This document shows, piece by piece, positions 27,729 to 59,237 of a stretch of DNA of 64,000 nucleotides. The notes below the pieces were generated by a model. The model ran no database searches. It saw nothing but the letters and a program-made list of their open reading frames with translations, and was not told where the DNA came from. The position numbers were made by a program, and so were the translations under genes. The DNA comes from Gammaproteobacteria bacterium (GTDB lineage: Bacteria > Pseudomonadota > Gammaproteobacteria > Xanthomonadales > Wenzhouxiangellaceae), in the NCBI GenBank assembly GCA_018819105.1, contig JAHJQV010000033.1:1-64000 (forward strand). Reading direction: 5' to 3'. Position 1 is the stretch's first letter; each line of letters starts with the position of its first letter.

Positions 27729-28721
27729 TCAGTAAGCCTGCTCACGCCATGCCAGCGACGCGGTCTCCGCAGCCGGTGCGCGTCCAAGCACGAAGCGATC
27801 CAGCAGCGGGGTGACTTCGGCAAGCACATCCTGTAGCGGCTCCGGCTCCTCAGCGGTCAGCTTTTCTGCCAGCGCGAAGAGCGCTTCGTACAGCTTCTCG
27901 CCTTCGACTTCGGCAGCCAGTTGCACGCTGTCTCGCTCGGCCAGCAGCTGATCCCAATATTCGCGCACGCGCTGCCAAAGCGCTGCCGTCTGCCGCCAGT
28001 AAGCATGCCCGGCGCTGAAATCATGATCCTCGATACGGGTGTATTTGTTGACACCGATTTCATGCGCGATGTAGGGCATGCCGGGGCTGTCGAGATCCAG
28101 CTTGCTGTTGTCCTGTTCGTGCACCCAGCCGTCCGGTGTGATGACGTGACGATTGGTGGCGACCATGACATGGTAGTCATCGCGCTTGGTGTATTCCCGC
28201 CGTGGCAACGGCCGCCAGCTGCGGTTTGAGGTCCAGGCGGCAAAGCTGCCATCATGCTGCCAACGTCCGACCCCGGAGTAACGCGGGCTGTCGTCCACCT
28301 GCCACACGGTCTGGCTCCAGGCAGCTTCGGCGTCCTCGGCTGCGACCGGCAGCTGTACCCAGCGCCGCTCGCCATTGAAGGTGAGCAGTTCCTTTGGCTG
28401 GTACTGCCAGTCCTGACGCCAGTGCTTGACCACAACCGGCTGCTCGTCATCGTCTGACATCACCAGGATATGCTGCAGGGAAATGAAATCGCCGCGATCC
28501 TCAATGACTTCAACGTACTCGGTCGCTTCGGCATGGTATGGCTCGGTCAACTGGTAACCAGGGCGCAGTGCCACCGTCTCACGAAAGTCGAAATCGACAT
28601 GGTATTCGCCGGTCATGGCGAGGATGGCAGCGCGGTCACGGGCCAGACTGCCGGTATCAAAAGCGCTGACGTTGAAGGCCAGCAGGGCAAACATGGGCAA
28701 GCTCAGAAAACAGTGTTTCAT
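27729..28721 (-). CDS. DUF6607 family secreted protein
   Basis: A 330-residue protein with a signal peptide (first 20 residues, ending VSA). I recognise the DUF6607 pattern: GEYHVDFDFRETVALRPGY, HWRQDWQYQP, a tryptophan-rich WTSNRSWRPLPRREYTKR, and TPDGWVHEQDN. Function is not known; members often sit beside heme-uptake genes. Here it is the last gene of a receptor-hemP operon, with a strong GAGGAG ribosome site seven bases upstream of the ATG. A periplasmic role in heme or iron handling is a guess from context. Confidence 0.75.
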   Translation of the reverse strand: MKHCFLSLPMFALLAFNVSAFDTGSLARDRAAILAMTGEYHVDFDFRETVALRPGYQLTEPYHAEATEYVEVIEDRGDFISLQHILVMSDDDEQPVVVKHWRQDWQYQPKELLTFNGERRWVQLPVAAEDAEAAWSQTVWQVDDSPRYSGVGRWQHDGSFAAWTSNRSWRPLPRREYTKRDDYHVMVATNRHVITPDGWVHEQDNSKLDLDSPGMPYIAHEIGVNKYTRIEDHDFSAGHAYWRQTAALWQRVREYWDQLLAERDSVQLAAEVEGEKLYEALFALAEKLTAEEPEPLQDVLAEVTPLLDRFVLGRAPAAETASLAWREQAY

Positions 28722-28775: not shown

Positions 28776-29012
28776 TTACTCTTCATGTCCGGTCAGAATC
28801 AGCTTGCCGCGCCGGGTCTGGCGCAGCAGATAGCGCTTGTCGCCATGTCTGATCAGCATGCGTTTGCGTGTGCCCAGCAGCAGGTTGCTGTCGATCTGTG
28901 GCAGACCGGGATTGCTGAAGTCCGCCTAGGACGTGTTCTGAGACACGTTGTGAGACGCGTTGTGGCCGGCATGCCCGGACAAGGAAAGCGTGTTGGATTT
29001 GGCTGTGGTCAT
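28776..29012 (-). pseudogene. hemP: HemP-family heme uptake protein with in-frame amber codon
   Basis: An ATG two bases after the receptor stop opens a 78-codon frame. Codon 29 is TAG (28926-28928). The part after it, IDSNLLLGTRKRMLIRHGDK then RYLLRQTRRGKLILTG, is a complete HemP core. The part before it is a low-complexity leader with three 12-base repeats (H-N-x-S). Without read-through the core would need reinitiation, with the only ATG after the stop deep inside the core (27 residues left). It could be a recent nonsense mutation, a sequencing error or suppressed translation. Confidence 0.7.
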
Positions 29013-29014
29013 GA

Positions 29015-31234
29015 TCAGAATCCTGCAAAGGTTCGGGCCAGGGACAGGCGAAAGCTGCGTCCTGGCTGATTGATGCCGTTGGGGTGGATGCGAAAGTTTT
29101 TGTCCAGCAGATTGTCGACATTGAAACGCATTTCAAAGCCGCGCAACAGGCCGCTGGTCGGGGTCCAGCTGGTGAACAGGTCCAGCTTGCCGTAACCCGC
29201 CGTGACGATGGCATCGTCGGGTACGTTGTCGCGGTCTGAGGCCACGATCCACTCACCGCCCAGGGTCAGGCGGCGATCCAGCAGCCGCACACCGGCACGC
29301 AGGCTGGCCTGATCCGGTGGCGTGCTGGCCAGGCGATCGTCACCATTACGCTGTCTGGCATCCAGCAGCGACAGACTGAGTGCCGCGAACATGCGGCCGC
29401 TGTCATATCGCATTTCGGTTTCGATGCCGCGAAAACGGGCGTCGATGTTGCGGTTGGAGGTAATGCCGGGAAACACCAGCGTCTGGGTGAACGGGTCAAA
29501 TGCCGGCTCGCCGCTGATGAACACTACAAATTGATCGACAAAATCGTCCACATCGCTGTGGAAAGCGGTGAATTCTATGCTGAATTCATCGCTACGGGTG
29601 AACAGACCCTGGTAGCGGTAACGTGCGCCCAGTTGCACCTGCTCGGCCGACTCAGGCTGCAGATCAGGTGTGGGCACGAACTCATTGACCACCACCTGCC
29701 CCGGTGCCAGCGGCACCACGAAGTGCACCCCATCGGCAAACAGCTCGGTCAGGCTGGGGGCACGAAAAGCCTGTGCGTACTCGCTCCAGAAGTACCAGTT
29801 GCGACTGGCTTCGAAACCCAGAGCCACTTTCGGAGTCACTTTGTTGTCATTGCGGTTGGCGGTGAAATTGTCAGCCTTGTAATCGAAGCTGTCGTAGCGC
29901 AGCCCCGGGATCAGGCTGAGTTTGCTGGTCAACTGCAGCTCGGCCTGCAGGTAGGCGGCACGGTAATCCACGCTGGCATCGGGAAACTGCAGCCGCGCGT
30001 CACCATCTCGGGTGCCGCGCTGCTTGTCCTGATAGAACTCCACGCCCCAGGTCAACGCCACTGGCGCGTAAAGCCCCAGGTCAAAGCGTGTGGTGTTGAA
30101 CAGCTCGATGCCTTCGGTGACGAAGTCGGAACTGTCAAAACGGTTGTCGGCGAGCCGGAACTCATTGACATCGATTTCATTGCGATAGGCCACCGCCTGC
30201 AGATCCAGCCAGTCGTTATCCGCTGGGTTCCACTGATAACGCAAGCGATGGTTGCGACGTTCGGTGTCGCGATCCACCAGGTTGGTGGCGGTGGCAGCTT
30301 CGTTGGCGTTGGGCGGATTCAGTCCCTCGTTGTCAAACAGCTCAAAAGCATACTCCAGGCGCTGATCAGTACCTGGCTGCCAGCCCAGCTTGATGAATCC
30401 GTTGGTCAACTCATCCTGACTGGCAAGAATCGGATTGTTGTCGCCATCCTGCAGATCCTCGCCGACATCGCGGTAAACGAAGCTGCCGATGAAATCGAGT
30501 TCGCCATATTGCGCAAACAGCGTATTGAAGCTGCCGAATTCCTCACCATTGCTCTGGTAGGCCAGCTTGAACCGGGCACCGAAGCCGTCCTGGTCGGCGG
30601 TGAAGTCGCGACCGCTTTTGGTCTGGATGTCGAACACCCCGCCCAGTGCCCCACTGCCGTAAGCCGCCGATGCCGCACCGCGCTGCACTTCGATGGATTT
30701 GAGCAGATCCGGATCCAGCAGAAAGCGTCCGCGATGCGCCTGATTGAAGCTTTGTCGGGTACCGTCGATGCGGATCACCACCTGCTCGTCCTGAAAGCCG
30801 CGAATCGCCGGCTCCTCGGCAATGCGTCTGGGGCCACCCTGGACGACGATGCCGGGCAGCGTTTCGAACAGATCGTTGTAGCCGTAGGGCTGAATTTCGT
30901 CGATGTCGGCCGCATCCAGTCTGGAGACCGCCGCCGGGGTGGTGAACAGTTCACGTTCGGTGCGGGTGGCGACCACGGTCATGGTGTCCAGTCGCACCTG
31001 TTGCAGACCTGAAAGCGTTGGCGTACGTTGTTCGACCTGTGCTGGTGCCTGCTCATCGCTGTCCGCGCCAGTCTCCGCCTGCGGATTTGTCATCGGATTT
31101 GCCTGTGTCACTGCCTGCGTCTGGGCCGTCAGCACCTTGTGCAACGACGAACCCTCTGTTGCGCAAACAGCACCAGTGCACAGCAGCAGGCCGACCAGCA
31201 GCATGGCCTGACGCTGCCGCGTGAGTCCTGCCAT
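29015..31234 (-). CDS. TonB-dependent receptor, heme/hemoglobin type
   Basis: A 739-residue outer-membrane beta-barrel receptor. The chosen ATG at 31234 gives a good signal peptide (MLLVGLLLCTGAVCA). The plug domain shows RLDTMTVVATRTERELF and YNDLFETLPGIVVQGG, then RGFQDEQVVIRIDGTRQSFN and YGSGALGGVFDIQTKS. The barrel ends in RSFRLSLARTFAGF with a terminal Phe. The plug resembles hemoglobin/transferrin/lactoferrin receptors, and hemP directly downstream supports heme as ligand. The frame opens at 31384, but those extra residues are not a signal peptide. Expression is probably Fur-controlled from 31808-31836. Confidence 0.85.
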   Translation of the reverse strand: MAGLTRQRQAMLLVGLLLCTGAVCATEGSSLHKVLTAQTQAVTQANPMTNPQAETGADSDEQAPAQVEQRTPTLSGLQQVRLDTMTVVATRTERELFTTPAAVSRLDAADIDEIQPYGYNDLFETLPGIVVQGGPRRIAEEPAIRGFQDEQVVIRIDGTRQSFNQAHRGRFLLDPDLLKSIEVQRGAASAAYGSGALGGVFDIQTKSGRDFTADQDGFGARFKLAYQSNGEEFGSFNTLFAQYGELDFIGSFVYRDVGEDLQDGDNNPILASQDELTNGFIKLGWQPGTDQRLEYAFELFDNEGLNPPNANEAATATNLVDRDTERRNHRLRYQWNPADNDWLDLQAVAYRNEIDVNEFRLADNRFDSSDFVTEGIELFNTTRFDLGLYAPVALTWGVEFYQDKQRGTRDGDARLQFPDASVDYRAAYLQAELQLTSKLSLIPGLRYDSFDYKADNFTANRNDNKVTPKVALGFEASRNWYFWSEYAQAFRAPSLTELFADGVHFVVPLAPGQVVVNEFVPTPDLQPESAEQVQLGARYRYQGLFTRSDEFSIEFTAFHSDVDDFVDQFVVFISGEPAFDPFTQTLVFPGITSNRNIDARFRGIETEMRYDSGRMFAALSLSLLDARQRNGDDRLASTPPDQASLRAGVRLLDRRLTLGGEWIVASDRDNVPDDAIVTAGYGKLDLFTSWTPTSGLLRGFEMRFNVDNLLDKNFRIHPNGINQPGRSFRLSLARTFAGF

Positions 31235-31395
31235 GTCTTGTCGACACGGCTGCTCGTGCCGGGGCAAGCCGTTCCCGGCGCCTGCGCCGGTATGAAAATG
31301 GACTGGCCTGTGGCCTGCAGGTTGCATCCATGGGCAAAGATGTACAACGGTCTTGGTGCATGACATACCAATGGTTCCTTTCATCCAACAGGTTA

Positions 31396-31736
31396 AAGGA
31401 ACCTCTGTATAACTCTGCGCGCAGCGCGTTTTGCTCGGAAAAGCCGCAGATTGTGTGCGGCGGCCCGAGTGACAGTAGCCTTAGCTACGGCCTCGGGGTG
31501 CCGTGCGCGAGCTGCGGTTTTTCCGGCGAAACCCTTTCGGGACGGACCCCGGATCAAGTCTGGGGCAGGCTCTTTACGGAGTTTCCGTCTCTTCCAGGTG
31601 CGCTCATATGGCCAACAAATTTAACCGCGGCCAAACCACAATTGCCCGAGTCAGGTCTGAACGTCTCGCTAAGCATTTCCCGAACTCCGATCCGGGGACA
31701 CCGTCGCGCACGTGCAGAGCTATACAGAGGTTCCTT
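31396..31736. mobile_element. MITE-like inverted-repeat element, family G (341 bp)
   Basis: The 23-base ends match in inverted orientation at 22 positions: AAGGAACCTCTGTATAACTC at the left (31396) and the complementary GAGCTATACAGAGGTTCCTT at the right (ending 31736). Inside, CGGAAAAGCCGCAG (31436-31449) pairs with CTGCGGTTTTTCCG (31512-31525), and CCCCGGATCAAGTCTGGGG lies near 31543-31561, akin to the hairpin of the CTAG-bounded family. There is no transposase. A further GGTTCCTT copy at 31373-31380 could pair with the left end. Confidence 0.7.
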
Positions 31737-31807
31737 ACATAAACCTGCCTGGCTGACGGGGCTACCGTTGGCTTGGCAGAACGTGGCGTTTGCTCAATCG
31801 TGCGGAC

Positions 31808-31836
31808 ATCTTAATACGGATGAGAATGATTATCAA
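31808..31836 (-). promoter_or_regulatory. Promoter of the heme receptor operon
   Basis: On the minus strand, TTGATA (31831-31836), 17 bases, TAAGAT (31808-31813). It points at the receptor gene whose ATG is about 570 bases downstream, with the family G element in between. A terminator of the upstream receptor gene lies just behind it. Confidence 0.6.
31821..31835. promoter_or_regulatory. Fur-box-like operator
   Basis: TGAGAATGATTATCA matches the 7-1-7 Fur pattern TGATAATnATTATCA at 13 of 14 defined positions and covers the -35 box and spacer of the promoter at 31808-31836. This predicts repression by Fur with iron. Confidence 0.75.
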
Positions 31837-31898
31837 GTGTATTTGAAAAAAGCGAGCAGTCCTGTCTCTGGCGAGGAAATATAAGTCAGTGATTGCCA

Positions 31899-31926
31899 AT
31901 AAAAAAGGCAGCCCGCAGGCTGCCTG
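31899..31926 (-). terminator. Rho-independent terminator after the second TonB receptor gene
   Basis: On the minus strand AGGCAGCC-TGCG-GGCTGCCT is followed by TTTTTTATT. It lies about 50 bases after the stop of the receptor gene at 31977-34460. Confidence 0.85.
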
Positions 31927-31976
31927 GTAAAGATAAAAGTGGGCAATCGCGCCGTCAGACACGACTGCGCATTGCC

Positions 31977-59027: not shown

Positions 59028-59237
59028 CTAGCCCGCATTATTCATGAGGCGACGTGGCGAGATGCTGCCAGAGCCTGCCCCGGACTTGATCCGGGGGCCA
59101 GTAGCTGTGGTGTTTCGCGACCGAACGAACCGCAAGCGTACTTGAACAGTACGTTGAGGATTCGTGACCGAGCGAAACGCCGCAGATGCGGGCCTGGAGG
59201 CATCGCAGTAGTCGGTTTCATGAATCATGCGGGCCAG
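59028..59237 (+). mobile_element. MITE-like element, CTAG-bounded family, copy 3 (210 bp)
   Basis: The left end is CTAGCCCGCATTATTCATGA (59028-59047); the right end (59218-59237) is the inverted repeat with CCAG instead of CTAG. The interior carries CCCCGGACTTGATCCGGGG, the GTTTCGC/GCGAAAC arms and a CGTACT hairpin. It is the inverse of copy 1 and nearly identical to it. It lies between yqaA and pcm. Confidence 0.8.

Follow-up and report, generated by a model that had tools for sequence, protein, structure and literature searches.

In the window, the 64,000-nucleotide stretch of DNA that was analysed, the hemP gene is interrupted by an in-frame amber codon, and we consider it probable that a recent nonsense mutation, located in the variable leader, has turned the gene into a young pseudogene or near-null allele. 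Ribosomes leaving the receptor gene would start at the ATG at 29012 and reach the TAG after 28 codons, where they would terminate. Little or no HemP would then be made, with leaky read-through perhaps leaving traces, and we infer that none of it is useful. The switching off of hemP by mutation is an ordinary event, and the loss of hemP with retention of the receptor is plausible. The locus would be a clean small case in which a regulatory gene of an uptake operon is lost while the receptor and DUF6607 genes on either side of it remain open.

The interrupted hemP frame

hemP is encoded on the minus strand, a point missing from the preliminary description, and the translation of 28776-29012 reads 28 codons, TAG, 49 codons and TAA. 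The frame opens with an ATG (29012-29010) placed two bases 3′ of the receptor TGA (29017-29015). The coordinates previously given for hemP, including this start and the TAG at codon 29 (28928-28926), proved correct (Table 1). Three-frame translations of the locus contained no ATG, GTG or TTG between the TAG and the HemP core, and a gene finder limited to these three start codons could not call the core whole. A frameshift into the core was also considered and rejected, as the same translations show no HemP sequence in the two other frames around the TAG.

Table 1. Features of the hemP locus and its surroundings in the window
Feature	Position	Strand	Basis or remark
hemP interrupted by TAG	28776..29012	-	ATG 29012 to TAA 28778-28776; translation and PF10636 match after the TAG
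28-codon leader 5′ of the stop, variable among relatives	28929..29012	-	Translation, leader comparison
Three 12-base tandem units, last abutting the TAG	28929..28964	-	Sequence reading; Tandem Repeats Finder
In-frame TAG, codon 29	28926..28928	-	Translation
HemP core, 14 of 15 columns conserved at >=80% kept; C-terminal Lys replaced by Gly-His-Glu-Glu	28779..28895	-	PF10636, alignment
TonB-dependent heme/hemoglobin receptor, open	29015..31384	-	TIGR01785 450 bits; 54-59% identity to four family receptors
DUF6607 gene 3′ of hemP, open, ribosome site -8.7 kcal/mol (strong)	27729..28721	-	PF20311 260 bits
341-bp mobile-type repeat, 26-nt terminal inverted repeats	31396..31736	.	Between promoter-like site and receptor
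Sigma-70-like promoter match (TTGATA-17-TAAGAT) that overlaps with a Fur-box-like stretch	31808..31836	-	Fur match 13 of 19

The part of the frame that follows the TAG matches the Pfam hemP profile PF10636 with 48.3 bits (E 8.8e-13), passing the curated cut-off of 25, and it is the sole match to this profile at E <= 1 in the genome. The core His and Tyr, which PMC9241770 describes as heme-binding, are retained (H17, Y22), and the codon usage of the core is gene-like, with a score of 0.70 where gene segments average 0.44. Judged by the profile match, these two residues and the neighbouring genes, the gene is hemP by descent. The NCBI equivalog model NF007559 stays below its threshold, at 42.7 of 77 bits. 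We filed the gene as a hemP remnant because it lacks both an uninterrupted frame headed by a start codon and a full KLILxK motif.

The leader ends in the tandem repeats that had been noted beside the stop, and we recovered all three units: together they make up the 36 bases (28964-28929) directly before the TAG, and Tandem Repeats Finder reports 28935-28964 with a period of 12 and 2.5 copies. The codon score of the leader is -0.19 over its 28 codons, or -0.5 when the TAG is included and the gene set differs slightly. Leaders score below cores in all 11 family relatives, whose starts were picked by hand (leader scores -0.48 to 0.19). We found no case for a leader that is never translated, a low leader score being typical of these relatives as well. 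A scan of coding strength around stops was not specific: the window holds 459 stops with open flanks, among which the hemP TAG ranks 139th by its weaker flank.

Tandem 12-mers beside a lesion are a place where assembly can slip, and the stop is known from one genome of the species, a draft assembly of 68 contigs. It is nevertheless rather unlikely that the stop is an error of sequencing or assembly and that the organism's real hemP is free of it. Slippage in full 12-base steps would leave the reading frame unchanged and would not alone create a TAG, the same error would leave the departure at the C-terminus unexplained, and the neighbouring receptor and DUF6607 genes are open over their length.

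Comparison with other hemP loci

HemP matches were found in 12 of 43 genomes in a family search, this genome included, and in 252 of 398 genomes in an order-wide search. We gathered 77 other hemP loci, consisting of 11 from the family, the 30 best-scoring of the order search, 30 further picks from that search with weak scores chosen by eye (one for its short frame) and 6 named loci. A script resolved 76 of these, including 29 of the weak-score picks, and did not resolve L112. L094, L095 and L096 were excluded from the count, being on the same contigs as L008, L009 and L006.

Each of the 76 resolved relatives, which are not a random draw, has an open leader with an ATG, GTG or TTG at least 10 codons 5′ of the core, and none has a lesion in this leader, whereas the hemP of the window does. 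The shortest open leader among them is 22 codons long (L102) vs 10 codons left after the TAG in the window, and the smallest open frame among the order-search matches listed is 58 residues vs 49 here. Leader sequences are strongly divergent between the species shown, yet they are open. A comparison of hemP in relatives had been proposed as a check in the preliminary description, and its outcome is that none of the 76 shares the stop; we favour the pseudogene reading in part because the leader is open and a usual start codon is present in every one of them.

Family HemP cores are 43 to 69% identical to that of the window. The single other genome of the genus, which is 88% complete, has no hemP match, and its best receptor match, at 28% identity, is not a close one. 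A scan of genome contigs with the window's own sequence found no relative.

The core itself had been called intact and undamaged, which is true of 14 of its 15 conserved columns and fails at its end, where the final Lys is lost and three extra residues follow. PMC9241770 describes a conserved C-terminal KLILXK motif in HemP; the window reads KLILTGHEE, with a tail three residues longer. The last residue of the motif is Lys in 75 and Arg in one of the 76 resolved relatives and is Gly only here, which is a further reason for the pseudogene reading. The loss of this Lys is a second departure and, on the alignment, favours relaxed constraint, though two relatives (L003 and L097) also have short tails beyond the Lys. 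The core has the lowest profile score of the 12 in the family search (47.5 bits). We give this no weight because five of the 30 weak-score loci score lower (43.1 to 47.0 bits) and their frames, 61 to 79 residues long, are open.

Several of these observations count against a pseudogene. The 14 kept columns and the gene-like codon usage are also expected of a gene in use, and the tails in L003 and L097, together with the modest ribosome site at ATG 29012, lessen the weight of the case. We simulated neutral drift on 35 core codons and scored the survival of the 14 retained conserved columns. The share of runs that keep all 14 is 57% at 0.02 substitutions per site, 25% at 0.05, 6% at 0.1 and 2% at 0.15; since the lost column was excluded, this bound is somewhat tight. 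A long-dead hemP is unlikely because simulated drift rarely spares all 14 columns, and if hemP is dead, the simulation suggests that little time has passed since, measured against the divergence within the family. The earlier argument that the core of a long-dead gene would have decayed holds as a bound and only as that, drift of about 0.1 substitutions per site usually hitting a column. The nonsense mutation would then be a recent one.

The genes around hemP are shared with other loci. The order receptor match, hemP and DUF6607 was observed in six of them, namely L132 to L136 of the family and L097 of Haliea alexandrii (respectively L005, L009, L012, L003, L008 and L097 in the leader comparison). 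The hemP leaders of all six are open with usual start codons, and on L136 only the receptor end is present. L101 has a receptor and hemP, and no DUF6607 match was found there. The receptor of the window matches four relatives with E 1e-230 to 1e-259, and its true start is probably inside the ORF, near 31234, where the translation offers a signal-peptide-like start. The Haliea alexandrii locus, with a receptor 54% and a core 63% identical, is as close as the window's own family. On these identities, horizontal transfer of the operon involving Haliea alexandrii is possible. DUF6607 is a family of unknown function, and a literature search on it found no paper; a search on Wenzhouxiangellaceae and heme found nothing on the subject, judged by titles.

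Recoding capacity and translation starts

The pseudogene reading also depends on how the TAG is decoded. The genome encodes RF1 (prfA, 536 bits vs a cut-off of 423), and this release factor has therefore not been lost. A search for suppressor tRNAs, proposed earlier as a check, returned none with a CTA anticodon among the 37 tRNA genes found in the genome, a set for which ARAGORN gave all 37 anticodons and which looks incomplete. No PylS match exceeds the cut-off (30 bits vs 178), and PylS matches below the cut-off also occur in 12 of 14 control genomes. TAG terminates 4 of the 28 window ORFs taken as genes. On these four grounds genome-wide recoding of TAG was rejected, and they are also reasons why we favour a pseudogene. 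Separately, none of the 37 tRNA genes was called as isoleucine, although Ile2 could be one of the three with a CAT anticodon. This makes it probable that some tRNA genes are missing, and suggests that regions are absent from the assembly, perhaps rRNA operons.

Ordinary low-level read-through of the hemP TAG is possible. That it reaches a functional level and supplies a low dose of full-length HemP is unlikely, even though the frame is kept on both sides of the TAG, most of the core is conserved and a regulator such as HemP may suffice in small amounts. PMC7918605 reports in-frame stops as widespread in bacterial genes, many of them with dN/dS below 1, which speaks for read-through, but the same source finds that such stops tend to last only a short evolutionary time. 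The presence of RF1, together with the results for CTA tRNAs and PylS, also speaks against it, as does the lack of a stop at this place in all 76 resolved relatives. A variant of this explanation casts the amber codon as a dosage brake: read-through would keep a heme-sensing regulator, harmful or unneeded at its normal dose, at a very low level, and the main product would be a His/Asn-rich leader peptide of 28 residues. We hold this to be very doubtful. If the TAG is read through, the locus would offer a rare test of stop codons setting the dose of a regulator.

Ribosome-site energies were calculated with a presumed 16S tail sequence. The site of ATG 29012 (GCAGGAT) is modest at -4.1 kcal/mol, and 34% of background positions reach -4. 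Another explanation is translation of the core by reinitiation downstream of the TAG or from a non-AUG codon such as CTG 28904, three codons 5′ of the core; the product would be a leaderless HemP of about 42 residues. By itself the core forms an open frame with gene-like codon usage, and a Shine-Dalgarno-like TAGGCGGA lies on the TAG itself with -5.7 kcal/mol. However, -5 or better is also reached at 24% of background positions, and this stretch points to an AAT, which is no start codon, 7 nt downstream, with CTG 28904 at 16 nt. The energy of CTG 28904 (-3.2 kcal/mol) equals the background mean (-3.2), and ATG 28859 inside the core (-2.4 kcal/mol) would delete roughly the N-terminal third of the domain. 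Moreover, in all 76 resolved relatives a usual start is available 10 or more codons 5′ of the core. Apart from the open frame, internal initiation has no support, and we regard it as quite improbable. Of the three options first raised for this stop, namely read-through, reinitiation at a non-ATG codon and a very recent mutation, the relatives favour the last; there is no convincing internal start and no support for recoding.

The upstream region and known systems

The 5′ leader of the receptor operon contains a 341-bp element whose 26-nt ends are 92% complementary. Elsewhere in the genome this element has one near full-length copy (82% identical) and several partial copies (21 rows including the window's own). 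Some 30 bases of the element also occur alone in 8 of the 21 rows, for example at 829-858 and 59070-59099 of the window. The Fur-like stretch upstream of the element lies 849 nt 5′ of the receptor landmark codon here vs 234 in L097 and 270 in L134. Scores of 13 or more are reached at ten sites in the window, which makes the Fur-like box weak on its own. The best Fur-box matches in L132, L133, L135 and L101 (9 to 12 of 19) are not convincing. The HmuP-responsive GCCAGC repeat was not found on the minus strand of 31385-31976, which has two GCCAG. PMC9241770 describes the HmuP-responsive element as absent in gammaproteobacteria.

The position of a mobile-type element with inverted ends and copies elsewhere, between the promoter-like site and the receptor, raises the alternative that its insertion set the whole heme-uptake operon decaying, with the hemP stop as one lesion among others. 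The other genome of the genus, which has neither a hemP match nor a close receptor, would fit such a course, but that genome is only 88% complete. The promoter-like match is still there, and the receptor, with the E values given above, and DUF6607 are open and well conserved. We consider decay of the whole operon most improbable, and the young pseudogene, confined to hemP, remains the preferred reading. A literature search on hemP with a premature stop or as a pseudogene returned nothing relevant, judged by titles or abstract openings.

Three known systems can be set beside the locus. The first is the HemP/HmuP/ChuP family (PF10636), whose members are small regulators of heme uptake, with the solved relatives 4ynx ("YdiE"), 2loj and 2jra. 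The window core matches the family profile, keeps the core His and Tyr and adjoins a TonB-dependent heme receptor; it differs in the stop in the leader, the altered KLILxK end with its tail of three additional residues and a score that does not reach NF007559. The second is the class of nonsense-bearing bacterial genes reported in PMC7918605. As in these, the hemP of the window has a single in-frame stop with the frame and most of the downstream sequence kept, but here the stop is found in one genome only and is common to none of the 76 relatives. The third comprises the operons of Wenzhouxiangella limi (L095), the other family loci and Haliea alexandrii (L097), which share their gene order with that of the window. 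In L132 to L135 and L097 the receptor is 50-59% identical to the window's over its length, and in the family loci and L097 DUF6607 is 40-46% identical. The hemP leaders of the Wenzhouxiangella limi, family and Haliea alexandrii loci are open, unlike that of the window.
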